Shown piece after piece: positions 14,074-29,900 of a stretch of DNA of 34,119 nucleotides. Origin of the DNA: Candidatus Dormiibacterota bacterium. Lineage in GTDB: Bacteria > Chloroflexota > Dormibacteria > Dormibacterales > Dormibacteraceae. Positions within the stretch are counted from its first letter, which is position 1, and each line of letters opens with the position of its first letter. The position numbers and the translations under genes are program-made. The notes under the pieces were generated by a model. That model saw only the letters and a list, made by a program, of their open reading frames with translations. It was not told the origin of the DNA and ran no database searches. The DNA lies in NCBI GenBank assembly GCA_003151935.1, contig PLYZ01000046.1, positions 1-34,119 of the forward strand, given 5' to 3'.

Positions 14074-14769
14074 GTGCGTAATCCGGATCCGGCCGCCGTC
14101 GGCGAGCCAGCGACCCGCCTCCTCCAGGTCCTGATCGTCCAGGATCATCCGCTGCTGGCTTCAGCCCTCGCCAGGGTCCTCGAAGGCCAGCCCGACATGG
14201 CCGTGTCAGGCGTGTCCGGCTCGGGAGCCGCAGCCATGGAATCGGTGGCACAGAACAGGCCTGACGTCGTGCTGATGGACTTCCGGCTCCCCGACGTCAC
14301 CGGGCCGGCGGCGGCGCGCACCATCAAAAACGCGCACGCGGACGCGGCGATCGTCTTCCACAGCGCCGACGACTCGGAGACGGCGCTCCTGGACGCGATC
14401 GACGCCGGCGCCACGGCCTACCTGACAAAGGAAGCGACAGCGGACCAGATCATCGAAGCCGTTCGCAGAGCGTCGCAGGGTGAGGTGCTGATTCCCGTGG
14501 AGCTCTTCGCTCGGGCGATCGCGCGTCAGCGGGCGGTCGTGATCCAGAAGCGGGAGCGGGAGCAGCTCCTCGCCGAGTTCACGCCACGCGAGCTGGACAT
14601 ACTTCACCTGCTTGCCGAGGGACTCGATACGACATCGATGTCCCGGCGGCTCGGAATCGCCCCGCACACGGTCGAGTGGCACGTCCGCCACGTGATCGAA
14701 AAGCTCCAGGTTCACTCCAAGCTTCAAGCGGTCATCGCGGCGGCGCGCAAGGGCCTCATCGAGCTCTAA
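14074..14769 (+). CDS. NarL/FixJ-type response regulator
   Basis: 231 residues from GTG. The receiver domain (about 17-135) contains LIVQDHPLL (acidic pocket with one Gln in place of the usual Asp), the phospho-acceptor Asp in VVLMDFRLPD (about residue 69), HSADDS (Ser/Thr switch region) and AYLTKEAT (conserved Lys). A linker helix rich in Arg and Glu leads to a LuxR-type HTH (FTPRELDILHLLAEGLDTTS, then IAPHTVEWHVRHVIEKLQVHSK) near 170-231. It should be a DNA-binding regulator activated by phosphorylation. No cognate kinase is adjacent; the kinases at 24.7 and 26.2 kb are candidates. It may be the factor that binds the shared upstream element of this island, which is inference. Confidence 0.9.
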   Translation: MRNPDPAAVGEPATRLLQVLIVQDHPLLASALARVLEGQPDMAVSGVSGSGAAAMESVAQNRPDVVLMDFRLPDVTGPAAARTIKNAHADAAIVFHSADDSETALLDAIDAGATAYLTKEATADQIIEAVRRASQGEVLIPVELFARAIARQRAVVIQKREREQLLAEFTPRELDILHLLAEGLDTTSMSRRLGIAPHTVEWHVRHVIEKLQVHSKLQAVIAAARKGLIEL

Positions 14770-15437: not shown

Positions 15438-17393
15438 ATGCAGCTGAGGAGGGGGCCGCCGGGAGCCCGATTGCCGGTCGCCCACGTGCCGGCGCTTCGC
15501 CTGGTGAAACCCCCGGCGTCGCGCCTTCGCGCGCCCACGGGTTGGAGGGCCTGGACGCCTTTCAACAACTACACGCTGCGCGTCGTGGCGGGGATCATGC
15601 TGGTGTCGATTCCGCTGTCTATCATCCTCGGATTCGTGATCTCCAACTGGAGCTCGCAGACGAGCATCGACCAGACCAAGGCTCGCGCGGAAGCGACCGC
15701 GGAGAGCGCCTCCGTCCGGATCGAAGACTGGGTGTCTGAGCGCCAGGCCGAGCTCCGCACCCTCGCCCAGGACCAGGTCGGCAACCTTTCGTCACCTGGC
15801 CTCCAATCGCGCCTGGTTGCCGCGGTCGCATCGCATCCGGAGCTCGAAGCCATCCAGATCTTCGATGCGAAGGCAAACATGGTCGCGTCATCGCAGCAGG
15901 GCATCGTGATCTCGCCCACGCCGACGGGGGCCACCTTCGCCAACAGCCTCAGCGTCGAGACGCTTGGGCCAATCGGGATTGGCGGCAACGGAATCGACTG
16001 GCTCATGACCGCACCGATCCTCGGTCCGGACGAGCTTCCACAAGGCATGGTGGCCGCCGACCTGCGCGTGACGTCGCTCTCGAGGCTGTTGAATCCCTAC
16101 GGCCCGGACGCCGTTACGAGCCAGGACCAGGAAACTCACATCGTCAACGCCGATCACCTTCTCGTCTACAGCTCGGACTGGGGCGTGCTCCCCGACGATG
16201 ACGCCGCACTGGCAAAGGGATCGCTGAAAACTCGAGCCGAGGCCGCCGTCTACGACCACGCGATCGCAGTCGGCGCCGGCGCAGCTCAGATAGTCGACTA
16301 TCGCAACCACCAGGTCCTGGCCGGCTACGAACCTATTCCAACCCTTGGCTGGGTCATTGTCGCCTCGATCGAAACGTCGAGCGCGCTGGCGCCGGTGCAG
16401 CAGCAGGAGCTCCGGACGTCGCTGCTCCAGGGCTTGAGCACGCTGGTGCTCATCGCATTCGCCATCATCCTGGCCGTCTTGACGACTCGACCGATCGTCG
16501 CCCTCTCTCGTGCCGCGGCGAGGGTCGAGGCGGGAGATCTGTCCGCCCGCGTCAACCTGTCCGGTGGCGCGGAGGTCCGCCGACTGGGGGACACGTTCAA
16601 CGCCATGATCGAGCGCCTCAGCGCGGTCCTGCTGCGGCTCCGGGGCGAGGTCACCGAGTCCGCCACCAAGCTCTCGGCAGCCGCCGAACAGCTCGCCTCA
16701 GCGACCCTCGAGCAGACGACGGCAGCCACCGCAACGTCGGCGAGCATGGAAGAGGTGGCGCGTACCTCGACTTCGATCGCCGACACCGTTGACCGGGTCG
16801 CCATCCAGGCCGGTGAGGCGCAGACCAACCTCGAGCTCGCGCAAACCGATCTCAAAGCCTCGGGCGATCGGACCCTCGCGCTGGCCGGCCGCGTCAACGA
16901 GATCGAAGGCATCCTCGAGCTCATCAATGACATTGCCGACCAGACCAACCTGCTCGCCCTCAACGCCGCGATCGAGGCGGCGCGCGCCGGCGACGCGGGT
17001 CGCGGTTTCGCCGTGGTCGCCGATGAGGTGCGCAGGCTGGCCGAGCGGTCGAAGGCGGCCGCCGCACAGATCGCGAAGCTCGTGGAAGGTGCTCAGGCGC
17101 AGAGCGGCGAGACCGTCATGGCGCTGGAGAAGGGTGTCAAACAGATGGAGCGCGGCCTGAAGATGATGCAGGCGATGACCGAGGTCAGCGGCCAGGTGCA
17201 GGTCGCGAGCCAGCAGCAGCGCTCGTCCACCGAGCAGGTCGTGCTCGCCATCGAGCACATCGCCGAGGGCAGCCGGTCGGTGGCCGTCACGGCCCAGGAG
17301 ATCGCCTCGGCCGCGGCACGGCAGGGTGCTCTGGCCGCCGACCTCGCAGGCTCGGGCTGGGAAAGCCTGACCGAGGACGACGGTGGAGCTTAA
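15438..17393 (+). CDS. Methyl-accepting chemotaxis protein with extracytoplasmic sensor
   Basis: 651 residues. A Pro/Arg-rich cytoplasmic N-terminus (1-45) precedes TM1 (about 47-70). An extracytoplasmic domain of about 255 residues, dCache-like in length and pattern (ending [16 protein letters not shown]), is followed by TM2 (about 329-350) and HAMP (about 351-400, [22 protein letters not shown]). The signalling coiled coil has the hairpin tip [25 protein letters not shown] at about 494-518 and [22 protein letters not shown] after it. It should bind a ligand outside the cell and control CheA through CheW. It is first in the chemosensory operon, begins at the shared element and overlaps the next receptor by 11 bp. 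An alternative TTG start near 15470 has GGGAG in front of it. Confidence 0.95.
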
Positions 17394-18579
17394 GAAGCCG
17401 GGCCTTGTGCCGGTGGTCGTGAGCGCGCCCACCAACGTACGCGTGTTGAGAATCGCCGCCACTGATCCGGACGCTCCGCTCGGCGCCCTGCCCTACGAGA
17501 AGGTCTGGAACAGCTTCTTCGCGAGGATGCTGGTCAGCCTGCTGGCGGTCGCGCTGCCGTTCTTCATCATCGCCGGGCTGGTTCCCAACCTTCTCGCACG
17601 GTGGGGAGTCGGACCCGAGATCGTCGCCACCACCCTCCTGATCGGCATCACCGGGGTGGCCGCTCGTTTGATGATCCGCCCAGTGGTCGCGCTTTCGCGG
17701 GCCGCCGCCCAGGCCGAGTCAGGCGACTTCTCAGCGCGGGTCGTACCGGGCGGCAGCACGGAGATGCGGTTGCTGGGTCAAACGTTCAACGCCATGCTCG
17801 ACCGGCTCGCCGGCATGCGGTTCGGTCTCCGAACCGAGGTTGCCGAATCTGCCGCCAATCTTGCCGGAGTGGCGGAGCAGCTGGCCGCCGCCACCCTGGA
17901 GCAAACCAACGCAGCAAGTGAGACCTCGGCGAACATGGAGGAACTGGCGCGCAGCAGCGTCTCAATCGCTACGACGGCGGCCGCGGCCAGCAGCCAAGCG
18001 GACGACGTCCGAGCCCGGATCGTGGTGGCGCAGACGGAGCTGCAAGCCTCAGGTCAACGCGCGATGGCGATGGCGCGACAGGCGGGTGAGGTTGAGGGCA
18101 TCCTCGAGCTGATCAACGACATCGCCGACGAGACCAACCTGTTGGCGCTGAATGCAGCGATCGAAGCCGCTCGAGCCGGCGAGACAGGGCGTGGCTTCGC
18201 TGTCGTAGCGGACGAGGTGCGGCGCCTCGCCGAGCGCTCGAAGGCCGCTGCAGCGAAAATGGTCACGCTCGTTGGAGGGGCGCAAGGACAGAGCCGGGCG
18301 AGGGCTGCGGCGATCGAAGGTTGGACTCGCCAGATGGACGTCTGGGTGGCGATGATGAGGACGATGGCTGAAGCCAGCGGCCAGGTCCAGCTGGCCACCG
18401 AGCAGCAGCGTTCGGCGGTCGATCAGGCAGTGGTCGCCATCGAGCACATCGCCGTCAGCAGCCGGTCGGTGGCCGCAACCGCGCAATCGATTGCGCTCGC
18501 CGCCGCCCGCCAGGGCAACATTGCGGCCGAGCTCGCGGGCTCCACGAGCGAGATCGGGGAGGCGGTCGGTGGTGAATAG
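17383..18579 (+). CDS. Short chemoreceptor without an extracytoplasmic domain
   Basis: 398 residues. An N-terminal cytoplasmic segment with [14 protein letters not shown] precedes two closely spaced membrane helices (about 49-71 and 79-97) with only a few residues between them. Then come HAMP (about 99-145, [22 protein letters not shown]) and a signalling domain with [20 protein letters not shown] and [21 protein letters not shown]. The HAMP and signalling parts are very close to those of the preceding receptor, pointing to duplication with loss of the sensor. It may sense membrane or cytoplasmic state, or act as a spacer in mixed arrays (inference). GTG start with GAGGA upstream, overlapping the first receptor; its stop overlaps the start of the third-receptor remnant. 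Confidence 0.93.
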
Positions 18580-18825
18580 ACTGCCACCCGAAATCCGCAT
18601 CCCTTCTCAAGCGACCAACCTTCGCGTGTTGAAGCTCCCGGTTGCCGATCCGCGACCGGTTCGAGACGCCCTCCCGAGTCACAACCCTTGGGACAGCTTC
18701 TTCACCTGGATGCGGCCGCGGTGGCGACCGCCTCGAAGGAGCTCGCCGCAGCGGCGGGCGCCAGGATCGCGCTCTTCCAACAGAAAGACGTGCAGAAGGA
18801 CGTGCAAAAAGACGTGAGCGTATGA
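18569..18825 (+). pseudogene. Remnant of a third chemoreceptor (both ends kept, middle lost)
   Basis: A GTG at 18569 (GGGGAGG six bases upstream) opens a frame coding ATNLRVLKLPVADP and then NPWDSFFTWM. This corresponds to the N-terminus of the second receptor ([22 protein letters not shown]) up to the first membrane helix. At about 18700-18712 this character stops. A different frame then encodes DAAAVATASKELAAAAGARI ending QKDVQKDVQKDVSV and TGA at 18823. This resembles the final helix of chemoreceptors and overlaps the cheW start (atga), as an intact gene would. All of TM, HAMP and signalling domain are gone, so an internal deletion with frameshift is the simplest reading. The out-of-frame continuation ends at 18817 in a basic tail. 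Confidence 0.6.
18784..18819 (+). repeat. Three 12-bp tandem repeats
   Basis: Three near-identical 12-bp units based on AARGACGTGCAR (18784-18795, 18796-18807, 18808-18819) encode Lys-Asp-Val-Gln repeats at the end of the receptor remnant, directly before cheW. The last unit diverges in its final bases. Confidence 0.7.
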
Positions 18826-19232
18826 CCCGAGTGCTCGTCATTGCCGCCAACTCGGCTTACTTCGCCGTTCCCATGGGAAGCGTGCACCAGGTGCTGCGGC
18901 ACCCCTTGGTGACCCGCGTTCCCCTCTCACCCGCCGGCCTCATCGGTGTCGTCAACGTTCGCGGAGAGATCGTCCCCCTGCTAGACACGGCGGTGTTGAC
19001 CGGAACCGGCAAGCTCAGCGAACCGCCCTTCGCCGTGCTGGTGCGCAGTGGAGAGGACATGGTGGCCTTGAGTGCCGATGAGCTGCCGATCGCCGCCGAC
19101 TTCGAGGAGCCGGTCGGCGCAGGCGCACAACCCGGCGAGGTCGCCATCTACAGCAACGGCGGACGCCTGGTGGTGCTCGTCGACGTGGAGGAGCTGGTGA
19201 AAAACCGGCTGGACCTGAAACGGGCGAGCTAG
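18822..19232 (+). CDS. cheW: Chemotaxis coupling protein CheW
   Basis: 136 residues, slightly short for CheW. It begins VLVIAANSAYFAVPMGSVHQVLR (first beta-barrel) and has VTRVPLSPAGLIGVVNVRGEIVPLLDTAVL, where GVVNVRGEIVPLLD is the CheW signature; VVLVDVEELV closes the fold. It should bridge receptors to CheA in the array. The ATG overlaps the stop of the receptor remnant (atga), so the remnant still serves translational coupling. The longer open frame upstream (from 18642) reads the remnant out of frame and is not coding. The 3' end overlaps the presumed first codons of CheA. Confidence 0.93.
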   Translation: MTRVLVIAANSAYFAVPMGSVHQVLRHPLVTRVPLSPAGLIGVVNVRGEIVPLLDTAVLTGTGKLSEPPFAVLVRSGEDMVALSADELPIAADFEEPVGAGAQPGEVAIYSNGGRLVVLVDVEELVKNRLDLKRAS

Positions 19233-21433
19233 AGGACGAGTTCCGGCCGCTATTTGTCGAGGAGGCCAAGGGCCACCTCGAGCGGATTGCTTCGGGCCTG
19301 ATGGCGCTCGAAGCGGCACCCGACGATCAGGCCGCGATCGATGGGATCTTGCGCGAAGCGCACACCATGAAAGGAGCGGCCGGCATGGTCGGGATGATGC
19401 GGGTGAGCCGGCTCGCCCATCGACTCGAAGACCTCCTGGTCGAGCTCCGTTCGGGGACGCGGCGCTCGACTCCGGAGCTCACGGATTCGATGCTGATGGT
19501 CGTCGACGGTTTGGGCCGGCTCATCGCCAACCCGTCCAGCGGAGAACAGGACGCGAGCGACGAGGCGGCGATGGAACGTCTTCTGCCGACGCCGGCGGTT
19601 GCGGCGGCCGCCCCCCCTCCCGGCCTGTCCCCGGCGACGGTTGCGGTTGCGGTCTCCAACCCCCCGCCTGACCTTCTATCGCCATCGCCGGTTGCAATCT
19701 CCAACTCCCCACCCGGCGGTGCCCTGCGGGCAGCGCCGACCTCCCCACAGGGTGGGGAGGCCAGCAAGAAGGTGGAGGCTTCCACTCTCGAGGTGCCTGT
19801 GGCGCGAATCGACGAGCTCAACCGGCTGGTCGGAGAAGTCTCAGCCGCACAATTGAGAGTCGGACACGTGTTCGGAACCGAGCTGCACATGGACCCCGAT
19901 GCCAACACCGAGTACCGCGAGCTGACCAAGGTCATCAACCAGCTCCAGGAGGTCACCGAGCGAACCCGGATGGTGCCGGTCGGAACGCTCGGCGCGATCC
20001 TGCACCGAACGGTCCGGGACACCGCGCGCACCCTGGGCAAGAAGGTGCGCTGGGAGCTGATCGGCGAGGACATCGAGGTCGACCGAGGGGTGCTGGAGCA
20101 GCTCGTCTCACCTCTTCTCCACCTGGTCCGCAATTCGATCGGGCATGGCATCGAAACTCCCGAGGAGAGGCTGGCGGCCGGCAAGCCCGAGGAGGCCGTG
20201 GTCCGGCTGCACGCGACACAGGTCGGGTCCAAGGTCGTGATCGCGATCAGCGATGACGGCGCCGGCATCAACGTGGCCGCCGTCCGAGCGGCGGCGCTCA
20301 AGCGCGGCCTCCAGATCGACGGGCTCACGGAGGACGAGTCGCTGCACCTGATCTTCCACACCGGGGTCTCGACCGCGAAGACCCTCACCGAGACCTCGGG
20401 TCGAGGAGTCGGACTCGACGTCGTGCGCTCCGCCGTCGAAGCCATCCACGGCGAAGTGCAGATCGTCAACCACCCCGGTGCCGGGGCGGAGTTTCGGATC
20501 GTGGTGCCAATTACGCTGACTGTCGTCCCATGCCTCATCGTCTCGATCGCGGGCCAGTCGTTCGCCCTGCCTCTGCACCGGATCATCCGTATGCTGGAGG
20601 CGCAGAACGTCCAGGTCGTGAGCGGCAAGAGCCTCGCCGTCATCGATGGGCTGGCCGTTCCGGTTTCCGACCTCGCCTCGCTCCTGGGCCTACCGACCGT
20701 TGGTGCCGGACCCTGGGTTTTGCTCGGCACCGCGTCGAGCCCCCATGCATTCCAGGTCGAGACCGTGATGCAGAAACGCGACGTCGTCGTCCGCGGTTTG
20801 ACCGGCCGCCTGCGCGAACTGAAGGCGGTGAGTGGGGCCAGCATCGAACCGAACGGAAGCATCCTGCTGGTGCTTGACGTTTCGACCCTCATCGAACGCA
20901 GCCTCTCAACCGTTACCGCCGGATCCAACGCCGCCGACAAACCCGCCGGTCCGCCGCCACAGCTGTCGGTGGTGGTCGTGGACGACACCCTGATGGTGCG
21001 CGAACTCCAGCGCTCGATCCTCGAGCGTGGAGGCTATGCGGTGCGTACCGCGAGCGATGGAGCCGAGGCTTTTGCGATGCTGAGCGAAGTACCCGCGGAC
21101 CTGGTGGTGACCGACGTCGAGATGCCGAACCTGGACGGTCTGGACCTGATCACCAAGATGCGCTCACATCCGCGCCTGGCCAACGTTCCCGTGCTGATCG
21201 TGTCCACGCATGGGAGCGATGAGGATCGACAGCGCGGCCTCGACGCGGGTGCCGACGGCTACATCGTCAAGACGTCTTTTGACGAGGCTGGATTGCTAAG
21301 CGCGGTCTCGCGCCTGCTGGGCCGGACCCAAAGCGCCACGTCCCAAACGAGAAATGGGGCACGCGGCCCTGGATCCGCTCCAGGCTTGCCGGCCCCAACG
21401 GCCGAAACGGCCGCCACCGCGAGTCGCGCATGA
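19220..21433 (+). CDS. cheA: Hybrid chemotaxis histidine kinase CheA with C-terminal receiver
   Basis: No standard start codon exists in frame before ATG 19301, yet the frame upstream encodes ELEDEFRPLFVEEAKGHLER, the first helix of the HPt (P1) domain. The likely first codon is ACG at 19220, which would put the phospho-accepting His of REAHTMKGAAG at residue 48. A Pro/Ala-rich linker of about 60 residues, partly made by a repeat, replaces P2. Then come the dimerisation helices (VPVARIDELNRLVGE), ATPase (LLHLVRNSIGHGIETPEER, SDDGAGIN, GRGVGLDVV), CheW-like P5 and a receiver domain (VVVVDDTLMV, VVTDVEMPNLDG) near residues 580-700. It autophosphorylates and can pass phosphate to its own receiver. 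atga overlap with cheR. Confidence 0.93.
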   Translation, partial: TGELEDEFRPLFVEEAKGHLERIASGLMALEAAPDDQAAIDGILREAHTMKGAAGMVGMMRVSRLAHRLEDLLVELRSGTRRSTPELTDSMLMVVDGLGRLIANPSSGEQDASDEAAMERLLPTPAVAAAAPPPGLSPATVAVAVSNPPPDLLSPSPVAISNSPPGGALRAAPTSPQGGEASKKVEASTLEVPVARIDELNRLVGEVSAAQLRVGHVFGTELHMDPDANTEYRELTKVINQLQEVTERTRMVPVGTLGAILHRTVRDTARTLGKKVRWELIGEDIEVDRGVLEQLVSPLLHLVRNSIGHGIETPEERLAAGKPEEAVVRLHATQVGSKVVIAISDDGAGINVAAVRAAALKRGLQIDGLTEDESLHLIFHTGVSTAKTLTETSGRGVGLDVVRSAVEAIHGEVQIVNHPGAGAEFRIVVPITLTVVPCLIVSIAGQSFALPLHRIIRMLEAQNVQVVSGKSLAVIDGLAVPVSDLASLLGLPTVGAGPWVLLGTASSPHAFQVETVMQKRDVVVRGLTGRLRELKAVSGASIEPNGSILLVLDVSTLIERSLSTVTAGSNAADKPAGPPPQLSVVVVDDTLMVRELQRSILERGGYAVRTASDGAEAFAMLSEVPADLVVTDVEMPNLDGLDLITKMRSHPRLANVPVLIVSTHGSDEDRQRGLDAGADGYIVKTSFDEAGLLSAVSRLLGRTQSATSQTRNGARGPGSAPGLPAPTAETAATASRA
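19706..19761. repeat. Palindromic repeat inside the cheA linker
   Basis: It shows the same plan as 5900-5971: CCCCACCCGGCG, a variable hairpin loop, CGCCGACCTCCCC, then a perfect 9-bp inverted repeat CCTCCCCAC-AGG-GTGGGGAGG (19740-19760 region). It is translated in frame as NSPPGGALRAAPTSPQGGE. Insertion of a REP-like element into the flexible linker would be tolerated. Confidence 0.6.
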
Positions 21434-22557
21434 GTTCGCTCACCCATGCCTCGTCACTCCTGCGGTCACGCGCCGGCCTCAAAGCAGAGCCGGCGGCCCA
21501 GGCAAGGCTCGAGAGGTTACTTCAAGAGAGCGCGACCCTCGCGGGCATTCCTGTGGATGACTACGTGAGCATGGTGGACACGCAGCCTGCGGCCTTTGAC
21601 GATCTGCTGGACCGCGTCACCGTCCAGCACAGCGCCTTTTTCCGGGATCCTGCTCAGTTCGCAGCCCTCGACCATCTCGCTCGCCGAGCGGATCAGTCGC
21701 AGCACGTGGTCTGGAGCGCCGCGTGCGGCAACGGCCAGGAACCGTACAGCCTGGCGATGGCGCTCGATGAGACCGGCCGCGGCGACTGGCAGGTTGTGGC
21801 CACCGACGTCTCATTCCACGCGCTCGCTCGAGCCGAGAAGGCCCATTACACCGAGACCGAGGTCCAGGGTCTTTCCAACGAACGCCGGCATCGATATCTC
21901 ACGCCGAGCCAGGACGGATACGACGTCGTTCCGTCGATTCGACGTCGGGTGCGCATCGCCCATCACAATCTCGCGCTGGACGAAGCGACCTCGATCGTGC
22001 CTAAGCCGGCGATTGTTTTCTGCCGCAACGTCCTGATGTACTTCGGACGCGAAGAGTCAACGGCCTGCATTCAGCGCATCGCCTCCGCGATGGCTTCTGG
22101 CGGGCATCTCTTCCTCGGCCATTCGGATTCGCCAGGACCGATGACTCGATTCTTCGCAGAGGTCTGGGTGGCCGGCGTTCACTGCTACCAGCGGCTCGCG
22201 GCGGTGCCCGTCGCTTCAGTGGTTGGAAAGCAGTCGGCCGGCGCGCGGCCGCCTCGCGACCTGCCCGGCCTGCTCACCGAAGGAGATCGCGCGGCGGCAA
22301 GCGGCGACCTTCGAGCGGCCGTGCGCGCGTTCCGGCAGGCGACCTACCTCGATCCAAACGTCGCCATCGCCTACTTTCAGCTCGGGGCGGCGCTCGAGCT
22401 CGCGGGCGACGCACGCGAGGCGCGCCGCGCTTTTGGCGCGGCAGGTCTGGCAATGGTCAATGGAGACGGCTCAGAGGACATCTCCGGGCTCGGGGGCTAC
22501 ACGCGCCGCGACCTGGCCAGCGCCATCGCCTACAAGCTCACAGGCGCGGTCCGCTGA
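21430..22557 (+). CDS. cheR: CheR methyltransferase fused to a TPR segment
   Basis: 375 residues. The N-terminal helical CheR domain includes LLDRVTVQHSAFFRDPAQF, the conserved substrate-binding region. The SAM-binding core has VVWSAACGNGQEPYSLAM (about residues 93-110), ATDVSFHALARAEKAHYTE and IVFCRNVLMYFGRE (about 195-208), ending GGHLFLGHSDS. The C-terminus (about 280-345) has a TPR-type helical pair, AVRAFRQATYLDPNVAIAYF then LGAALELAGDAREARRAFGA. It should methylate Glu residues of the receptors; TPR fusions are common where CheR docks without a receptor pentapeptide. No CheB accompanies it here. It overlaps cheA (atga) and the REC-ParA gene (tgatg). Confidence 0.95.
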   Translation: MSSLTHASSLLRSRAGLKAEPAAQARLERLLQESATLAGIPVDDYVSMVDTQPAAFDDLLDRVTVQHSAFFRDPAQFAALDHLARRADQSQHVVWSAACGNGQEPYSLAMALDETGRGDWQVVATDVSFHALARAEKAHYTETEVQGLSNERRHRYLTPSQDGYDVVPSIRRRVRIAHHNLALDEATSIVPKPAIVFCRNVLMYFGREESTACIQRIASAMASGGHLFLGHSDSPGPMTRFFAEVWVAGVHCYQRLAAVPVASVVGKQSAGARPPRDLPGLLTEGDRAAASGDLRAAVRAFRQATYLDPNVAIAYFQLGAALELAGDAREARRAFGAAGLAMVNGDGSEDISGLGGYTRRDLASAIAYKLTGAVR

Positions 22558-23702
22558 TGGCGACAGAAGACATCGTCCTCGTCGACGACGACCGCGTGAT
22601 CCAGAAGATGGTCGGTGGCTTCCTGCAGCGGAGGGGCTACGCGGTGCGCACGGCGCATGACGGAATCGAGGCCCTGCAGTTCGTCCGCGACCGGATCCCC
22701 GACCTCGTCATAACCGACGTGCGCATGCCGGAGCTCAACGGCATCGAGCTGACCTCCCGTCTGCGCGCCCACCACAGGACCGCCGGCGTTCCGATTCTCA
22801 TGTTCTCGGAGCTGAGCGGGGCGCCCGATGCCCTGGCCGGATACGCGGCGGGCGCCGACGACTACCTGCCCAAGCCTTTTGAGCTCGAGATCCTCGAAGC
22901 CAAGGTCCAGTCCCTGTTGCGGCGTTCGGCAGGCGCCACGGCAAAGCGCAACCGCGGCAGGATGATCCTGTTTGCCCACGCGAAGGGCGGCGTCGGCACG
23001 ACTTGCCTGGCCGTCAACACGGCCGTGATGCTTGCGGCGCAATCCTCGAAGCCGGTCGGCCTGCTCGACCTCGATGTCGAGTTCGGCGATTCGGCGGTCT
23101 ACCTGAACCTCCATCCAAACCGAACCCTGGCCGACCTCAAAGCGCCTCCCGGCGCTCTGGTCGACGAGACGTCGTTCGAAGGTTTCGTGACCGAGTCCGG
23201 CAGCGTCCGGCTCGTGGTCGGGTCTGACTTCCCGGAACGAGCCGAGCTCGTCACGCTGCCGGCCATCCAGCTTGCCATCGACCGCCTGAGCGCCACCTGT
23301 CAGTACGTGCTTGTGGATTCACCTGCATCGTTCAGCGAACGCACCCTGACCGCCCTCGACACATGCGACCTGATCTGCCTTGTCACATCCGCATCGCTGC
23401 CCTCACTGAAGGCGACTCGCCGATGCCTCGTGCTCTTCGACACACTTGGCGTGTCACCACAGCGGGTGCGGCTGATCCTCAACCACAGCACGCCCCATGC
23501 GATGGACATTGGTGTCGCCGCCGCGGTGCTGGGACGCCATCCCGACTTCGTGATCCAGAACTCTGGGAGCCTCGAGCGGGCCGCGAGCACCGGCCGGCCA
23601 TTGGTCACAGCCGATCCAGCCGACCCGCTGGTCTCGGATCTTCGAAAGCTGGCGGATTCCATCGTCGCGAGTCTCCCTCTCTCGCTGGACGCGCCCGACT
23701 AG
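22557..23702 (+). CDS. Receiver-ParA/MinD ATPase fusion (CpaE/TadZ-like)
   Basis: 381 residues. The receiver domain (about 4-120) has VLVDDDRVIQ, phospho-acceptor Asp in LVITDVRMPELNG and DDYLPKPFE, all complete. A short linker leads to a ParA/MinD-type ATPase with deviant Walker A FAHAKGGVGTTCLAVN (about 139-154), LLDLDVEFGDSAVYLNL (Walker A' region) and YVLVDSPASFSERT (Walker B). The architecture is that of CpaE/TadZ, which localise pilus machinery, and of ParC/PpfA, which position chemoreceptor arrays. As last gene of the chemosensory operon it is a candidate for placing the array or linking it to type IV/Tad pili; this is inference. It is convergent with the next gene, 15 bp away. Confidence 0.88.
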   Translation: MATEDIVLVDDDRVIQKMVGGFLQRRGYAVRTAHDGIEALQFVRDRIPDLVITDVRMPELNGIELTSRLRAHHRTAGVPILMFSELSGAPDALAGYAAGADDYLPKPFELEILEAKVQSLLRRSAGATAKRNRGRMILFAHAKGGVGTTCLAVNTAVMLAAQSSKPVGLLDLDVEFGDSAVYLNLHPNRTLADLKAPPGALVDETSFEGFVTESGSVRLVVGSDFPERAELVTLPAIQLAIDRLSATCQYVLVDSPASFSERTLTALDTCDLICLVTSASLPSLKATRRCLVLFDTLGVSPQRVRLILNHSTPHAMDIGVAAAVLGRHPDFVIQNSGSLERAASTGRPLVTADPADPLVSDLRKLADSIVASLPLSLDAPD

Positions 23703-23717
23703 AGACCGCGCTCGCCG

Positions 23718-24293
23718 CTACTGCAGCACCAGCTCTTCCACGGGGTGCGCAATACGCCCGGCGACGTGCATCTGATATTCGTAGGCTCTCGCCATGCGCC
23801 GGAGGCCGGTGTCGGCACTCGAGCTGATGATCTTCCGCGCCAAGGTGGAGACCGCCATGCCCACGCCGAGGCGACTGACCTCTTCGTTCAAAACTCGGAG
23901 ATTGGCGTCGCGCCACAGGACATAAGACCGCGCCAGGACAGTGAGTGACAGGCCGTAACGCGCCGCGAAGATTCCAACCCGGCTGACGAAGTTGCGCTCC
24001 ACCTCCGTCGTGCCTTGGCCCGAGATCAGGAACCGCGCGATGGCCCGGCTCGTCAGAGCGTTCACATCGCGGATCTGCTTCGCAAAGCGCGGCGAGGTCA
24101 GTTCGGCCAGCCCTGTCGCCACGGCAGCCGCCGCGATCAGCCTCGTGGTCTCCGTCACTCGCGCAGCAAGCGCCTGGCCGAGGCGGACCTGGGCCGGATC
24201 GGCGGCGAGAAGCGGCAGGCGCGAGAACCCGAAGCCGCGACCCCGGCCGCTGGCCGCCGGCGTGACGGCTGTGCGGGCCCCGTTGTTGACCAT
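23718..24293 (-). CDS. Helical protein of unknown function in the signalling island
   Basis: 191 residues from ATG 24293, chosen because the shared upstream element ends exactly there. The open frame further upstream is intergenic or antisense. The protein is helical, with FAKQIRDVNALTSRAIARF, EVERNFVSRVGIFAARYGLS, LTVLARSYVLWRDANLRVLN and AVSTLARKIISSSADTGLRR. This looks like helical N-terminal sensor modules seen before kinase, cyclase or PucR-type output domains in high-GC bacteria, but here there is no output domain. I cannot assign a family with confidence. It is convergent with the REC-ParA gene and divergent from the kinase operon; both sides use the same element, so a regulatory partner role is likely (inference). 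Confidence 0.66.
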   Translation of the reverse strand: MVNNGARTAVTPAASGRGRGFGFSRLPLLAADPAQVRLGQALAARVTETTRLIAAAAVATGLAELTSPRFAKQIRDVNALTSRAIARFLISGQGTTEVERNFVSRVGIFAARYGLSLTVLARSYVLWRDANLRVLNEEVSRLGVGMAVSTLARKIISSSADTGLRRMARAYEYQMHVAGRIAHPVEELVLQ

Positions 24294-24367
24294 GCGCAAG
24301 TAATACGCGCGCTCGAACGTTATGTCTCCCTGCGAAATCTGGTCTTCCCCCCATGCATTTCGATGGG
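24294..24367 (-). promoter_or_regulatory. Shared upstream element, copy E (minus strand)
   Basis: Read on the minus strand it begins CCCAT...ATGGGG (inverted repeat) and has CAGGGAGAC at element positions 36-44. CGTATTAC lies at 61-68, followed by six bases and the ATG of the minus-strand gene. About 34 of 74 positions match copy B overall, but the core positions agree much better (7 of 9 at 36-44, CGTA identical). Confidence 0.45.
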
Positions 24368-24477: not shown

Positions 24478-24660
24478 ATGGGATTCGCAGGCGTTGTCTT
24501 CGCCCTGGTCACGTTGGGATACATCCTTGGGGTCTGGACCGCATTGGCTGTCTTGAGGCAGCCGCAACAGTCGTATGAGGACGCTGTCCCCGCGTCTTTG
24601 TCCGACGCTCCAATCATCCTGTTGCGCGACACATCGCGCCTCGGGACGCGGCGGCCATGA
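24478..24660 (+). CDS. Small single-pass membrane protein
   Basis: 60 residues: one hydrophobic helix (about 4-26, VVFALVTLGYILGVWTALAV) and a polar cytoplasmic-looking tail rich in Asp, Ser and Arg. Its stop overlaps the kinase ATG (atga), and the shared element abuts its start, so it is the true first gene of the operon. The kinase that follows has no membrane helix of its own; this protein could tether it or report on the membrane, which is inference. No family is recognised. Confidence 0.58.
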   Translation: MGFAGVVFALVTLGYILGVWTALAVLRQPQQSYEDAVPASLSDAPIILLRDTSRLGTRRP

Positions 24661-25826
24661 GCCGCACGACCCCTACACCCAGACAGCTCAAGGTTCTGAG
24701 AATCCCGTCGGCGGTCGCCAATCACGACCGGCGCAGCCATGAGCGCCGAACGGAAGCCGAACCCCCCGAAGACCTGGTATCGCTCGGCAGCCACGAGCTT
24801 CGCAATGCCGTCTCGAGCATCGTGGGTTGCGCCGAGCTGATCGACTCCGGCGACCTGGCGGATGAGGCCCTACACCTGTACACGGGAATCCTGCTGCGGG
24901 AGGGCCGGCGCCTGAGTGCGTTCGTCAACAACGCGGTGGCGCTGCAGCGCCTCGAACACGGTCACAGAGAGCTGTACCTGGAACCGGTCGATGTGCGGTC
25001 GCTGATCAAGCGCGCGGTGCATGCAGCGGGAGATGACGACCTGAGGCCGATCGAGATCGACGTGCCCGAGGAGCTTCCACTGGTATCCGCCGAGGCCGAG
25101 GCGATCCTCGAGGTCCTGGGCAACTTCATCTCGAATGCCCGCAGGTTCTCGCCTGATGGCGGCTCGATCGGAATCGCGGCGCGCCAGCTCGGCGACATGG
25201 TCGAAGTCGACATCCGGGACCACGGCGTCGGTATCGAAGCCGAAGCGCTGCCCAAGCTCTTCCGGAAGTTCTACCGCGCCGACAGCGGGGTCGGCCGGCT
25301 CGCCCCCGGCGCCGGCCTTGGCCTGGCCATCAATCACAGGATCGTAGAAGCCCATGGCGGCAAGCTCGTCGCCAGCTCGAGGGGCGCGGGAAAGGGCGCA
25401 CAGTTTCAGTTCACGCTGCCGATCTCCCGACCTAGCGCAACCTCCGGAAAGATTCTCATCGTCGAAGACGACGGTGGATTCGCCAGCCTTTTGAAGGCGG
25501 AGTTCGCAGCGGAGGGGCTCAGCACCGTCCGCGCCGCCGACGCCGAGACCGCCGAGCGCCTGCTCGCGGACATGACGCCGCTGGCGATTGTCCTCGATCT
25601 GGCGCTGCCGGGCCTACAGGGCGAGGATTTTCTCGCTCGAATGTGGGCGGTTGGTGGCGCGCGTCTCCCCGTTGTCGTCCTGACGATGAAGAACCTCAGG
25701 CCCGATCAGATTTCAGCGCTCGAGCTCACGGGCGCCACGGCGGTCCTGCCGAAGGAGGCGGGTGCCCCCCAGGCTGCCGTAGCCTTGATCGCCAGGGCCC
25801 TGGCGGTCCAACCGCTCGCCGGATGA
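24657..25826 (+). CDS. Soluble hybrid sensor histidine kinase (HisKA-HATPase-REC)
   Basis: 389 residues without membrane helices or an obvious input domain. The N-terminal TPTPRQLKVLRIPSA precedes the H-box LGSHELRNAVSSIVGCAEL (His 46) and a dimerisation helix. HATPase N-box NFISNARRFSPDGG, D-box RDHGVGIEAEALPKLFRKFY and G-box GAGLGLAINHRIVEAHGGK follow. The receiver (about 265-385) has LIVEDDGGFASLL, Asp in IVLDLALPGL and Lys in VLPKEAG. It should autophosphorylate and transfer to its own receiver or to the single-domain regulator encoded next. atga overlaps on both sides. The receiver is closely related to that of the membrane kinase two genes downstream, so the pair arose by duplication. 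Confidence 0.93.
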   Translation: MSRTTPTPRQLKVLRIPSAVANHDRRSHERRTEAEPPEDLVSLGSHELRNAVSSIVGCAELIDSGDLADEALHLYTGILLREGRRLSAFVNNAVALQRLEHGHRELYLEPVDVRSLIKRAVHAAGDDDLRPIEIDVPEELPLVSAEAEAILEVLGNFISNARRFSPDGGSIGIAARQLGDMVEVDIRDHGVGIEAEALPKLFRKFYRADSGVGRLAPGAGLGLAINHRIVEAHGGKLVASSRGAGKGAQFQFTLPISRPSATSGKILIVEDDGGFASLLKAEFAAEGLSTVRAADAETAERLLADMTPLAIVLDLALPGLQGEDFLARMWAVGGARLPVVVLTMKNLRPDQISALELTGATAVLPKEAGAPQAAVALIARALAVQPLAG

Positions 25827-26227
25827 TCAGTCGCACCCCAACTCCAACCGAGCTGGAGCTCCTGCGCACCGTCCTGATCGCAGATGACGAGTCGAGCATC
25901 CGTCTCCTGGTTCACGCGACGATCGAGTCCGACGACTACAAGGTGGTCGAAGCCGCAGACGGAGCGCAGGCCTGGGCCATGGCCCAGGAGCTCAAGCCAT
26001 CACTGGTTCTGCTCGACGTGCAGATGCCGGGACCAAGCGGTCTCGAAGTGCTGCGCTCGATCAAGGCCGATCCGGATCTCAAGGCGACGCGCGTGATCCT
26101 GCTCACATCGAAGGCCCAGGAGCGAGACATCGAGGTCGGGCTGATCGCGGGCGCAGATTTCTACCTGACCAAGCCCTTCTCGCCGCTGGATCTCCTGACC
26201 CGGGTCGAAGAAGCACTCGAGCTCTGA
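25823..26227 (+). CDS. Single-domain (CheY-like) response regulator
   Basis: 134 residues from ATG 25823; the longer frame upstream is a shadow of the kinase gene. A short leader (ISRTPTPTELELLRT) precedes a complete receiver: VLIADDESS, Asp in SLVLLDVQMPGPSG (about 66), ILLTSKAQ (Thr/Ser switch) and FYLTKPFSPLDLL (Lys). There is no output domain. It probably shuttles phosphate between the two hybrid kinases or signals to another protein. The chemosensory operon has no stand-alone CheY, so this could also serve CheA (inference). It overlaps the kinase before it by four bases and the one after it by one base (tgatg). Confidence 0.93.
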   Translation: MISRTPTPTELELLRTVLIADDESSIRLLVHATIESDDYKVVEAADGAQAWAMAQELKPSLVLLDVQMPGPSGLEVLRSIKADPDLKATRVILLTSKAQERDIEVGLIAGADFYLTKPFSPLDLLTRVEEALEL

Positions 26228-28791
26228 TGGGCCAGCCCCAGCTTAGAGCCCGATCTCGCCGTCGAGGCTGGTCGGTAAGCCGGTACTTGGTCTTGTTCAC
26301 GATCGTCCTTATCGCTGTGGCCGCCGTAGCAGGTGTAGCGGTACGAGCCCTGGGCGAGCAGGACGCCCGGCAGTCGGCCACCGCGGACGCGAGCTTTGCG
26401 GCAAATGGGGCGGCGGATCAACTGGCAGGCGGCCTGCTCTTGCTGCGGCAGACCACTGCCAGGCTGGCGGCCGACCCGCAGGTGGCGGCTATTCTCGGTT
26501 CACCATCCGCACCGTGCAGCCTCATATTCGCGGGCGACGGTCCGTTTTCGATCGGCCATCTCGACATCATCGAGGCGGACGGATCGGTGAGATGCTCCTC
26601 CCAACCGGTTCACAACGGCCCGGTATATGCGCGGGCGGACTGGCTGCCCGCGTCAGTGCGCAGCCCGATCACGTTCGCGCCCTTCCTCGACCCGGTCACG
26701 AACCAGGTCTCGGCGGCGGTCGCCACCCCGGCCGCAGGCGCGCTGGGCATCGTGGCCGCGATTGTCGAGCTCGCACCTGTGGGACCCAACCTCGCGGCGA
26801 CGCTGGGCGGCCCGCGCCAGCTCGAGTTCCTGCTTACGACCACGGATGGCAACACAGTGCTGGCTCGCTCTCTGCAGCCGGCGCGCTGGGTCGGAAAGCC
26901 GCTGGCGGGCACGGACTTCGCGAGCGCCACCGGCCAGGTCGAACGCCTCGACCTCGATGGAAGAGCTCGCATCTACGCGAGCTCCACCGTCGGCTCAACC
27001 CACTGGCTGGTCTACTCCGGAGCTGACGAGGGAGCGGCGCTGGCGGCCGGTGACCTGTCGTCCAACCGCGTGCTCGCCATCATCTTCGGCGGCATGGGAA
27101 TCGTGCTCATCGCCATCTTCGCGGTCTACCGACGCATCGTGGACCCGATCCGGCAGCTCAACCTGGTCATACGCGGTGCGACGCCCGGGAGCGCAGTTGA
27201 CGCCGTCGACCTGACTGGGGCGAGGGAGGTCACCGGCCTCGCGGAGGACTTCGACAAGCTCATGGCAACGGTGAAGCGTGAGCTCGTCGAAAGGGTCAGC
27301 AGCGAGCAGGCCGCGATCGTCTCGGAGCGCAACTACCGAATGCTCTTCGAAGGCCATCCGGCGCCGATGTGGATCTACGACGTGGACACGTTTGCGTTTC
27401 TCGAAGTCAACGACAGCGCGGTGCAGGAGTACGGGTACTCGCGTGACGAGTTCCTGGCCATGACGATCAAGGACATCCGGCCCCCCGAGGACCTCCCGAA
27501 ATTTCTCGAGCTCCAGGCTCAGCCGCTGCCACACGCCGATCGATCCGGACCGTGGAGGCACGTCCTGAAGGATGGTTCGGCGGTCCAGGTGCTCGTCACG
27601 TCGCATTCCGTCACTTTCGGTGAGCACAACGCCCGCGTCGTCCTCGCCGAGGACCTGACCGAAAGTCAGCGGCTCGAGCTGGAGCTCGCCGAGTCGCACG
27701 CTCACGCCGAGAGCAGCGCCGAGCTCAGCCGGGCCAAGGATGAGATGGTCGCGATGGTGAGCCATGAGCTCGGCACGCCGCTCGCCAGCATCGTTGGCTT
27801 TACGGAGCTGCTGGCGACGCGCGAGGTGACGGCTGCTCAACGCAAGGACTATCTGGCGGTGATGCTCCAGGAAGGCCGCCGGCTGACAGCGCTCGTCAAC
27901 GACTTCCTCGATCTGCGCCGCCTCGAGGGCGGCCACCTTTCGATGCGCTTCGCGCCGGCGGACATCTCCGCGCTCATCACGCGCGCTGCCAAGCTCTTCA
28001 GCAACCCGGGAGGCCCACCGATCGAAACCCGCGTGCCCCACGACCTTCCGCTGGTTCGCGTGGACAGCGATTCCATGTTCCGCGTTCTGGCAAACCTGCT
28101 CTCGAACGCCCGCAAGTACTCTCCTCTCGGCGGCTCGATCGTCGTGGGCGCCAGTGTCGCGAATGGAATGGTCGAGGTCTATGTTCAAGACCGAGGCCTC
28201 GGGATTCCGGCCGAGGCCCTTTCCCTACTGTTCGGCAAGTTCTACCGCGTGGAATCGCCGGACCGCGACGCGATCGGTGGCACCGGACTTGGGCTTGCGA
28301 TCTGCAAGAACATCGTTGAGAGCCACGGGGGCAAGATCGGCGCGCGCTCGGAGGGAGTCGGGAAGGGCTCCCGCTTTTACTTCACCGTGCCGATGGTTCG
28401 AGAGCAGGCCCAGAGCGGCGATGTCCTCGTGGTGGAAGATGACTCAGGATTCGCCAACTTGCTCGAGGCGGAGCTGCACACAAGGGCTCTCAGCACGCTC
28501 TGGGCGCCAGACGCGGAGACGGCGAAGCGCCTGATGACCAAGGCGCGTGCGGTGGTGCTGGACCTGGTTCTGCCGGGTCTCCCGGGGGAGGATTTCTTGC
28601 GGGAGCTGCGAGCAAGTCGAGGAGCCGGAATCCCGGTCGTCGTCGTGACCTTGAAGGATCTTGATCCGGCAGCCAACCTCTCATTGCAGAAGGCGGGGGT
28701 CACAGCAGTGCTGCGCAAGGGGCCGGGTACTGCCGCCACGGCGGCAAACCTGATCGCCAGCCGCCTGGCTTCAGAGCTGGTGGCGATTTGA
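26227..28791 (+). CDS. Membrane hybrid sensor kinase (Cache-like, HAMP, PAS, HisKA, HATPase, REC)
   Basis: 854 residues. TM1 about 17-40. An extracytoplasmic domain of about 235 residues, dCache-like in length, has LDIIEADGSVRCSS and GSTHWLVYSGADEGAAL. TM2 about 280-300, HAMP about 300-350, PAS about 370-480 (YRMLFEGHPAPMWIYDVDTF, NDSAVQEYGYSRDEFL). H-box EMVAMVSHELGTPLASIVGF has His near 513. N-box LANLLSNARKYSPLGG, then YVQDRGLGIPAEAL and GGTGLGLAICKNIVESHGG. Receiver from about 728 (VLVVEDDSGFANLL, Asp in VVLDLVLPGL, Lys in VLRKGPG). It should sense an external ligand and pass phosphate to its own receiver or to the preceding regulator. Its stop overlaps the TTG start of the cyclase gene, linking phosphorelay and cyclic nucleotide output. 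Confidence 0.95.
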   Translation: MGQPQLRARSRRRGWSVSRYLVLFTIVLIAVAAVAGVAVRALGEQDARQSATADASFAANGAADQLAGGLLLLRQTTARLAADPQVAAILGSPSAPCSLIFAGDGPFSIGHLDIIEADGSVRCSSQPVHNGPVYARADWLPASVRSPITFAPFLDPVTNQVSAAVATPAAGALGIVAAIVELAPVGPNLAATLGGPRQLEFLLTTTDGNTVLARSLQPARWVGKPLAGTDFASATGQVERLDLDGRARIYASSTVGSTHWLVYSGADEGAALAAGDLSSNRVLAIIFGGMGIVLIAIFAVYRRIVDPIRQLNLVIRGATPGSAVDAVDLTGAREVTGLAEDFDKLMATVKRELVERVSSEQAAIVSERNYRMLFEGHPAPMWIYDVDTFAFLEVNDSAVQEYGYSRDEFLAMTIKDIRPPEDLPKFLELQAQPLPHADRSGPWRHVLKDGSAVQVLVTSHSVTFGEHNARVVLAEDLTESQRLELELAESHAHAESSAELSRAKDEMVAMVSHELGTPLASIVGFTELLATREVTAAQRKDYLAVMLQEGRRLTALVNDFLDLRRLEGGHLSMRFAPADISALITRAAKLFSNPGGPPIETRVPHDLPLVRVDSDSMFRVLANLLSNARKYSPLGGSIVVGASVANGMVEVYVQDRGLGIPAEALSLLFGKFYRVESPDRDAIGGTGLGLAICKNIVESHGGKIGARSEGVGKGSRFYFTVPMVREQAQSGDVLVVEDDSGFANLLEAELHTRALSTLWAPDAETAKRLMTKARAVVLDLVLPGLPGEDFLRELRASRGAGIPVVVVTLKDLDPAANLSLQKAGVTAVLRKGPGTAATAANLIASRLASELVAI

Positions 28792-29504
28792 TCATCACAC
28801 CCGACACACGCCAGGGAACGGCGGATCACGCCGACGACCTCGCAAGGATAGTTCGCCTTCGCCAGACATATCTGCGCATGGTCCCTGATCTCCAGGCCGT
28901 GCCCGACATCCCCACCCCGGTGGTGCGGACCGCGTCCATCATGTTCACGGACATCAGAGGCTTCAGCCGCTTGACCGAGCGTTTCGGGGACGACCCCGCC
29001 GGCCTGCTCGACGTGCTCAACGCGCATTTGAAGAAAGTCATCCGCTCCATCCTCATCTGCGGAGGTGTGATCGAGAAGTTCGTCGGTGATGGGGTGATGG
29101 CAACTTTCGGCGCGACCGACCACCAGCCCGACCACGTGCATCGCGCGATGGCCGCGGCGATCGGACTGGTCGGCGCCAACGAGGCATTGAACCGGCGATG
29201 CGCCGCGGGATGGGGATTTCGACTCGAGGTCGGCGTGGGCATCGCGTCAGGTCCGGTGGTCATCGGCGCCGTCGGGTCGGCCGAGCGATCGGAGCTCGGC
29301 GTGCTGGGCGATGCGGTCAACATCGCGGCCCGGCTGGTGACGCACGCCGGTCCCGGCGAGGTGCTCATGACGGGCACGGTCTTTCGCCAGGTGTCGGACA
29401 TGCTGCAGAGCGAGCTGACCAACCAATCGGCCGTTCGCGGGCGCACCGGCACGCTCGAGATCTACCGGATGTCATTGCTCGGAGGTCGCGGCGCCCTGGC
29501 CTGA
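28788..29504 (+). CDS. Class III adenylate/guanylate cyclase
   Basis: 238 residues from TTG 28788 (ttga overlap with the kinase stop). A short helical N-terminus (about 15-35) precedes the catalytic domain. Metal-binding Asp 55 is in IMFTDIRGFS and Asp 101 in EKFVGDGVMATFG; the purine-selecting Lys 97 is present. The transition-state Asn and Arg are in GDAVNIAARL. The second purine-selecting position, usually Asp or Thr four residues before the GD of GDAVN, is Gly here, so substrate choice is uncertain. It should make cAMP (or cGMP) as a homodimer in the cytoplasm. No receiver or membrane domain is fused, so control probably comes through partners from the same operon. Confidence 0.9.
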   Translation: MIITPDTRQGTADHADDLARIVRLRQTYLRMVPDLQAVPDIPTPVVRTASIMFTDIRGFSRLTERFGDDPAGLLDVLNAHLKKVIRSILICGGVIEKFVGDGVMATFGATDHQPDHVHRAMAAAIGLVGANEALNRRCAAGWGFRLEVGVGIASGPVVIGAVGSAERSELGVLGDAVNIAARLVTHAGPGEVLMTGTVFRQVSDMLQSELTNQSAVRGRTGTLEIYRMSLLGGRGALA

Positions 29505-29528: not shown

Positions 29529-29900
29529 TCAAACGCGCGGTTTCACGTGTTGCCCGGCAGCCAGCGCCGCGTAGCGGTCGTACTGAATTCGAAAGAGCTC
29601 GATTACTCCGGCGGCGTCTTCCGGTCCGGCCATCCAGCAGCTGACCCATCCTGTCTGGGGCAGGACGTGGTGGGGCTGGGCGCGACCAGCTGCGATCATC
29701 TCGTCGCGAAGCTTGCGCGGCAAGGGCAGGTCGGCCAGGCGGTTGCCGTGAACGTGGCCCATCTCTTTGGGGCCATACCGGTATTCGGTGCCGCCGAAGC
29801 GGTGCGATACCGCTTCGACTCTCGGCCACGAGGTGACAGCCTCCCGGATCCGCTCACCAGCTCCCTTCATATCTACCAGTAAACTCCGGACCGCCATCAT
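29529..29900 (-). CDS. Luciferase-domain (DUF5519-like) protein
   Basis: 123 residues. The sequence SWPRVEAVSHRFGGTEYRYG, then EMGHVHGNRLADLPLPRKLR, GRAQPHHVLPQTGWVSCWM and GVIELFRIQYDRY follows the pattern of the luciferase-domain/DUF5519 family: small proteins with conserved GHLHG and HHVLP-x-SGW motifs, named from a fold shared with dinoflagellate luciferase. Function unknown; several conserved His could bind metal. Start ATG 29900 or 29897, no ribosome site. It is divergent from the methyltransferase with only 9 bp between starts and convergent with the cyclase. Confidence 0.76.
   Translation of the reverse strand: MMAVRSLLVDMKGAGERIREAVTSWPRVEAVSHRFGGTEYRYGPKEMGHVHGNRLADLPLPRKLRDEMIAAGRAQPHHVLPQTGWVSCWMAGPEDAAGVIELFRIQYDRYAALAAGQHVKPRV

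Follow-up and report, generated by a model that had tools for sequence, protein, structure and literature searches.

A putative split two-component adenylate cyclase module in Candidatus Dormiibacterota

How might a two-component system govern a nucleotide cyclase when receiver and cyclase are made as separate proteins? Two-component control of cyclic AMP (cAMP) is known from fused cyclases such as CyaC and from the Pil-Chp system; what is new in the locus described here is that receiver and cyclase are separate yet evolutionarily tied, and that the kinases around them vary. The locus is a five-gene operon on a 34,119-nucleotide stretch of DNA (the window), which is the complete contig C1 of a draft genome of Candidatus Dormiibacterota (Chloroflexota), here G000 (2.94 Mb, 97 contigs, 99.6% complete, 3.85% contaminated). 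Along the + strand lie a small open reading frame (ORF), a histidine kinase (HK1), a response regulator (RR), a second histidine kinase (HK2) and a predicted adenylate cyclase (AC), with junction overlaps of 4, 4, 1 and 4 nucleotides; the original prediction had described five genes overlapping end to end, and their coordinates, order and domains are confirmed. Such a module is a small gene set in which direct contact between a response regulator and a cyclase could be tested, and versions that have lost their kinases in nature hint at the parts it cannot do without. It would also open a way to study cAMP signalling in soil Chloroflexota (Dormibacterota) that have not been cultured. We found no description of such a split module in open-licence PubMed Central papers, covered mostly by their titles and the starts of their abstracts. 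The features of the operon are as follows.

24478..24660, + strand: small membrane protein of 60 amino acids, first gene of the operon, with one N-terminal hydrophobic segment
24657..25826, + strand: HK1, soluble HisKA-HATPase_c-REC hybrid kinase (REC, receiver; from Pfam, trees and motif reading)
25823..26227, + strand: RR, single-domain receiver (the Pfam match is Response_reg only)
26015..26017, + strand: codon of Asp65, at which RR is predicted to accept phosphate; all 14 alignment rows have it
26227..28791, + strand: HK2, membrane histidine kinase with extracytoplasmic region, PAS, HisKA, HATPase_c and REC (Pfam, hydropathy)
28788..29504, + strand: AC, free-standing class III nucleotide cyclase, predicted adenylate cyclase, TTG start (Pfam Guanylate_cyc)
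28809..28877, + strand: N-terminal helix of AC, residues 8-30, before the catalytic domain (structure model, modest confidence)
29076..29078, + strand: Lys97 of AC, at the first of the two substrate-specifying positions and the same in all 11 rows
29298..29300, + strand: Gly171 of AC, second substrate-specifying position (Gly in 10 of 11 rows, Ala in one)

Receiver and cyclase across relatives

A cyclase search of 110 genomes of the class (G000 included, E<=0.001) returned matches to AC in 92 and a close match in five: G000 itself, G096, G098, G099 and G102. AC of the four relatives is 76-89% identical to that of the window; its scores start at 365 bits, against 110 bits for the next match in the list. 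The five-gene arrangement is more than chance, because the order small gene-HK1-RR-HK2-AC is identical in G096, G099 and G102; a survey of gene order had been named as a check on the original prediction, and the order is thus kept in three of four close relatives. In all four intact operons (window, G096, G099 and G102) the TTG start of AC overlaps the HK2 stop codon. Purifying selection acts on each of the five genes: between the window and G096, the ratio of nonsynonymous to synonymous substitution (dN/dS) is 0.36 for the small gene, 0.10 for HK1, 0.10 for RR, 0.20 for HK2 and 0.14 for AC.

The fourth relative, G098, carries two eroded copies of the operon (L040:1671-3391 and L133:6291-7143) that have different breakpoints and an intact RR in each, and its genus-mate G099 carries the complete operon. 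In copy A, on contig C22 of G098, the small gene is followed by what is left of the HK1 receiver as a stub; RR comes next, intact, and a 32-amino-acid HK2 stub separates it from an intact AC. Copy B, on contig C1 of G098, begins with the start of the small gene in frame with the C-terminal part of the HK1 receiver, followed by intact RR, a 45-amino-acid stub of the AC C-terminus and then a further kinase, HK3, with an RR of its own. RR dN/dS is 0.084 between G099 and copy A, 0.140 between G099 and copy B and 0.098 between the two copies, which are not one sequence split by the assembly since the synonymous divergence (dS) of RR between them is 0.83; AC of copy A has a dN/dS of 0.16 against G099. 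Read at the level of these gene remnants, RR outlasts the two kinases in either copy, and AC outlasts them in copy A.

In a phylum sample of 400 genomes the cut-offs were E<=1e-33 for the cyclase subfamily and E<=1e-36 for RR, the ten best RR candidates per genome being scored; the samples behind the AC and RR counts were taken as identical, as they agree in size, in number of good genomes (283) and in genera (224). AC occurs in 10 and RR in 13 of the 400 genomes, and all 10 AC genomes have RR (Fisher p 1e-17, relatedness ignored; the 10 genomes span six families). RR and AC lie within one cluster at 10 of the 11 cyclase-subfamily loci (window, G096, G099, G102, G098 copy A, G397, G314, G143, G258, G272 and G121), and at five of the six outside the close relatives. 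The order is RR-HK2-AC at four loci, RR-32-amino-acid stub-AC in G098, RR-AC in G397, G314 and G121, and AC-RR in G143 and G272. Upstream kinases are also diverse: G397 and G314 have one HK-REC kinase of the same clade as HK1 and HK2 and G121 has two larger hybrid kinases of that clade, the upstream kinase of G272 is a GAF-HK-REC protein of a different kind, and none was called adjoining the pair in G143. As far as these genomes tell, RR and AC are the core of the module, because the pairing persists despite kinase loss, differing kinases and two reversed orders.

A scan of named genomes gave 18 loci, of which nine are subfamily members (49-88% identity) in metagenome-assembled genomes titled Chloroflexi or Candidatus Dormiibacterota; these nine are no additional loci, and the other nine (28-41% identity) were left unused. 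A receiver-cyclase fusion in G258 was considered as a Rosetta stone for the pairing and dropped: the candidate looked receiver-like by eye, had no Pfam match and reached an hhalign probability of 8%. The HK3-RR pair also occurs on closely similar contigs of G069 (L177) and G078 (L178), with transposase-like ORFs nearby as judged by eye, which hints that the pair of these two genomes is mobile.

The cyclase, the kinases and the small protein

AC matches Pfam Guanylate_cyc at 1.9e-20 and has what defines a class III cyclase, the domain scoring above the cut-off with both metal Asp, the Asn and the Arg in place. Asp55 and Asp101, which we take to bind metal, and Asn178 and Arg182, which we take to be catalytic, are intact in 11 of 11 subfamily sequences. 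The substrate positions of the subfamily are Lys97 in 11 of 11 and, at position 171, Gly in 10 of 11 and Ala in G314. Gly171 departs from the canonical Asp/Thr of adenylate cyclases, and a printed alignment places the same residue at the second position in Cya2, the Synechocystis guanylate cyclase (PDB 2w01). Cya2 differs in its Glu at the first position and its CHASE2 sensor, whereas AC has Lys there, as does the Cya2 variant E488K, which displays adenylate cyclase activity (PMC5995499). Because AC combines Lys97 with Gly171, as in this active variant, its product is likely to be cAMP. The five other cyclases of G000 have Thr (twice), Gly, Leu and Ala at position 171, the one with Ala also being without Lys97.

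Hydropathy analysis found no hydrophobic segment in AC or in RR. The structure model of AC (mean predicted local distance difference test score, pLDDT, 80.5; 42-60 in blocks of the first 40 residues) has a helix at residues 8-30 followed by the catalytic fold; Pfam gave no Response_reg match in AC, so that the helix alone stands ahead of the catalytic domain, and it is a candidate docking or transducer element. A Foldseek search of the PDB placed CyaC first (E 6.8e-18, 30% identity), with Cya2 and Pseudomonas aeruginosa CyaB within the first 15.

HK1 has Pfam HisKA, HATPase_c and Response_reg domains, no sensor domain found with Pfam, and a single marginal hydropathy peak (1.65) inside its receiver. 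HK2 adds a PAS domain to the same set and has two strong hydrophobic segments (residues 21-39 and 282-300) with marginal peaks at 161-193; the sensor region matches no Pfam family, its structure model is of low confidence (mean pLDDT 47), and a Cache-type sensor is possible. The original prediction derived the two hybrid kinases from one duplication. They are indeed paralogs, 47.3% identical over 351 amino acids, but the history is not a simple two-way one, as a third paralog of the same clade, HK3, lies with its own RR on contig C79 of G000, on contig C1 of G098 and in G069. Kinase-core trees group HK1, HK2 and HK3 with support of 100/99, their nearest relatives being RR-adjacent kinases of other families, and the best tree joins HK2 with HK3 (74/59). 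HK1 and HK2 as sister duplicates are therefore unsupported, although at p-AU 0.27 (approximately unbiased test) this pairing is neither shown nor rejected, and mean identities in the 20-row tree set are 47% for HK1-HK2, 49% for HK1-HK3 and 58% for HK2-HK3. On these alignments the three are paralogs of one family-specific clade whose branching order lacks clear support.

Two trees were built. The first, of 23 rows, splits a 15-row kinase group from outgroup kinases at 99/100; here the outgroup G314:C101 dropped out over a mismatch in its called ORF, and the program warned of long outgroup branches. The second, of 20 rows, retained three of eight outgroup rows and added G069 and G167, and recovers the matching fork (17 rows) at 68/99. 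Neither tree includes the kinase of G078 or the GAF-type one of G272.

The two operon kinases have also diverged in their motifs. The HK1 H-box has drifted in three of four genomes, to HELRNAV in two of them (window, G096) and to HDLSDAL in the third (G102), and is the canonical HELRTPL in G099; the HK1 stem branch is longer (0.45-0.49 vs 0.32-0.35), and HK1 retains His46 together with its N, G1 and G2 boxes. The HK2 H-box departs from HELRTPL by one change at most in four of four genomes, the window having HELGTPL and G102 HEMRTPL, and the same holds for HK3 and for the same-clade kinases of other families. All four HK1 receivers have the phospho-acceptor Asp, as do three of the four HK2 receivers, the one of G099 (HK2 at L038:3128-5710) having Tyr in its place. 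The H-box drift favours a non-equivalent role for HK1, and by these motifs HK1 and HK2 need not be equivalent.

The small 60-amino-acid protein has no Pfam match. Its ORF looks like a true gene because it is present in six of six operon copies (in G098 copy B as its start only, fused to the receiver remnant), because its single hydrophobic segment, N-terminal and detected by hydropathy, is conserved among the copies, and because its dN/dS is 0.16-0.47 over 15 pairs. It is possibly an anchor or partner for the soluble HK1.

Phosphate flow and competing explanations

Upstream of the operon lies a chemosensory cluster (MCP, methyl-accepting chemotaxis protein) that was absent from the original prediction.

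14074..14769, + strand: NarL-type DNA-binding response regulator, adjoining the operon or its che cluster in five of five close genomes
15438..22557, + strand: chemosensory cluster of MCP, MCP, CheW, CheA-REC and CheR-TPR (Pfam)
22557..23702, + strand: REC-ParA ATPase (Pfam REC and ParA-type ATPase)
23718..24341, - strand: protein of ~207 amino acids corresponding to the N-terminal part of a G098/G099 histidine kinase, kinase core absent

G000 has 30 HisKA matches, 54 receiver matches and one HPt match, the last being in CheA (window 19244-19495), 5 kb upstream of the operon; each of the four relatives likewise has one. No HPt was found in the operon, so that the components of a four-step His-Asp-His-Asp phosphorelay are incomplete there, with the limit that a divergent HPt could be missed. 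Barring such a domain, the single genome match leaves CheA as the only route from hybrid receiver through HPt to RR, and the Asp-less HK2 receiver of G099 makes it less likely that phosphate has to pass by way of the hybrid receiver. For these three reasons (no operon HPt, one HPt per genome in CheA and the G099 receiver) transfer from kinase histidine to RR, presumably at Asp65 by analogy with the receiver family, is probably direct, and the relay of the original prediction is doubtful in the strict sense.

The explanation that we favour, with moderate confidence, is a split two-component adenylate cyclase, with receiver and cyclase on separate proteins. HK2 would sense an extracytoplasmic cue and HK1 a cytoplasmic cue or one relayed by the membrane protein; both would act on RR, HK2 at least phosphorylating it directly from its histidine, and the hybrid-kinase receivers would serve as sinks or internal controls. 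Phosphorylated RR would then bind AC, perhaps at the N-terminal helix, and alter cAMP output, which would be read by CRP-type proteins and by ATPases of the ParA/CpaE-like kind that bind cyclic nucleotides (cNMP), their genes lying at other places in the genome. The chemosensory cluster and REC-ParA next door suggest surface or pilus behaviour as the output. The sequences themselves show the operon, its conservation, the catalytic residues and the persistence of RR with AC; the RR-AC interaction is deduced from gene neighbourhood only, and the sign of regulation, the phosphodonor, the cAMP product and the output are inferred as well. Given the pairing, the mechanism itself is expected; the unusual features are that copies without kinases occur in nature and that there is just one HPt match.

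Several observations weigh against a split cyclase system of this kind. HK2 sits between RR and AC in the window; three of the 13 RR genomes (G069, G078 and G167) are without such a cyclase at the cut-off, RR there lying beside an HK-REC kinase; G098 copy B retains RR with a mere remnant of AC; the G258 cyclase stands apart, its HK-RR pair being on a different contig; the H-box drift means that HK1 may not be an ordinary kinase; and the window contig C1 has no T2SSF (Tad) match, which ties a pilus output weakly to the locus. RR has other jobs too, as the RR-only genomes and copy B without intact AC indicate.

It is conceivable, if unlikely, that RR is mainly a chemosensory receiver, with CheA as phosphodonor or phosphate exchanger, the hybrid kinases tuning RR and the cyclase being one of several outputs. 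The one HPt match per genome in five of five lies in CheA of the che cluster in the window and in the relatives where contigs cover it, no free-standing CheY is among the called genes of the window che cluster, and an RR-subfamily member lies within ~4 kb of REC-ParA in five of five close genomes. In P. aeruginosa Pil-Chp, PilG activates CyaB (PMC12632253). Against this, RR adjoins kinases of its own clade in G397, G314, G121, G258, G167 (where kinase placement is less sure) and G069, and a like kinase in G078, with no che genes in the stretches examined of these seven genomes, and the operon and the che cluster are on separate contigs in G098 and G099.

A quite unlikely alternative is that AC is co-transcribed with RR but not controlled by it, RR acting elsewhere (on REC-ParA or a kinase, for example) and the two being coupled through expression alone. 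The position of HK2 between them in the window and the cyclase-free RR of three genomes and of G098 copy B would fit this; the co-occurrence in 10 of 10 genomes, and the persistence of RR with AC after kinase loss in G098 copy A and in reversed order in G143 and G272, do not. It is improbable, finally, that HK1 with the small protein is an antagonist that dephosphorylates RR, uses its receiver to compete or controls HK2 instead of being a normal kinase: the missing sensor domain, the longer stem and the drift of an H-box that other clade kinases keep canonical or nearly so point that way, and together with the Tyr of G099 the drift slightly strengthens this possibility and slightly weakens the split-cyclase and co-transcription explanations, but HK1 keeps His46 and its N, G1 and G2 boxes, its HisKA and HATPase_c domains score above the Pfam cut-offs, and G099 has the canonical H-box.

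Relation to known systems and possible outputs

CyaC of Arthrospira (Spirulina) platensis (PDB 1wc0-1wc6) has receiver, kinase and cyclase in one polypeptide. The present module resembles it in the class III catalytic domain and in the logic of kinase and receiver upstream of a cyclase and differs in that the genes are separate and that kinases are lost or varied while RR and AC persist; AC has no covalently linked receiver, which would mark a CyaC-type protein. Likenesses to Pil-Chp, with its single-domain PilG and membrane-bound CyaB, include CyaB being among the nearest folds of AC and the chemosensory genes near the operon. They extend to the activation of an adenylate cyclase by a response regulator (PMC12632253, PMC10519157). 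ChpA contains six phosphotransfer domains (PMC10519157), in contrast to one HPt match in CheA here; in place of a membrane cyclase and a PilG/PilH pair there are a soluble-looking AC and one free-standing receiver in the operon, and dedicated hybrid kinases lie within it. The module operates, as proposed, like CyaC and in part like PilG-CyaB, yet it is neither CyaC nor PilG-CyaB type because its receiver is not covalently attached, its cyclase is without a hydrophobic segment and the CheA is not of the multi-HPt kind.

Clusters with CheR-TPR are mostly chemosensory pathways with alternative cellular functions (PMC3447774), and the cluster here resembles them in a CheR with C-terminal TPR-like repeats and in its multidomain receivers. 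It differs in being followed by REC-ParA and a cyclase operon, class III cyclases not being named among the output domains in the abstract of PMC3447774. Each of the five close genomes has MCP, CheW, CheA, CheR and REC-ParA; in G098 and G099 they lie away from the operon, and in G099 and G102 they are spread over contigs. In G098 copy A, G099 and G102 the small gene is directly preceded by the NarL-type regulator gene, which in the window and G096 precedes the che genes. The minus-strand protein of ~207 amino acids has no significant Pfam match; its kinase core is also absent in G096 and G102, the operon lying downstream instead in the window, G096 and G102, and in G098 and G099 the full kinase adjoins REC-ParA beside an RR-subfamily receiver (57% and 61%).

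Possible cAMP receivers include a cNMP_binding-ParA protein on contig C18 of G000 (L141:1438-2718), two more of that kind next to the G314 module and a CRP-type regulator gene upstream of G098 copy A; the cNMP match of a ParA protein in the Tad locus of G000 contig C43 (L160:4396-5691) is weak, below the cut-off. REC-ParA has the domains of CpaE/TadZ, which it resembles, but is not co-located with Tad structural genes: T2SSF matches of G000 lie on C43, C86, C94 and C88 (the last below the cut-off), and none on the window contig C1. Tad genes adjoin the module in G314 (a CpaB-like SAF protein, a T2SSF protein and the two cNMP-ParA proteins) and the HK-RR pair of G258 (TadE, Tad/TadG-like, one of three below the cut-off); the flanks of G397, G121, G143 and G272 had none by eye, with Pfam run on four of their proteins. 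A speculative, broader view is that the RR subfamily is an exchangeable hub that pairs, as separate genes, with the kinase clade and the cyclase subfamily, that may shed its kinases altogether, as in G098, and that could receive phosphate from CheA, so that chemoreceptors and both kinases would converge on cAMP read by CpaE-like ATPases that place Tad pili. We consider this rather improbable; if true, Chloroflexota would have an equivalent of Pil-Chp/cAMP surface sensing made from different parts.

Just 3' of the operon are a small protein matching Pfam 'Luciferase' PF17648 (window 29529-29900, - strand), a methyltransferase and a GrpB protein, none with a tblastn match in the operon stretches of G096, G098, G099 and G102. 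The cNMP_binding-ParA/CpaE-like proteins at L141, L160 and L044:3902-6431 share 27-32% identity with the ParA portion of REC-ParA in the window. On contig C94 of G000, a 959-amino-acid protein with cyclase and AAA_16 domains (L159:3-2882) adjoins a Tad-type locus that has two T2SSF matches and, by eye, TadE/G-like and CpaB-like genes.

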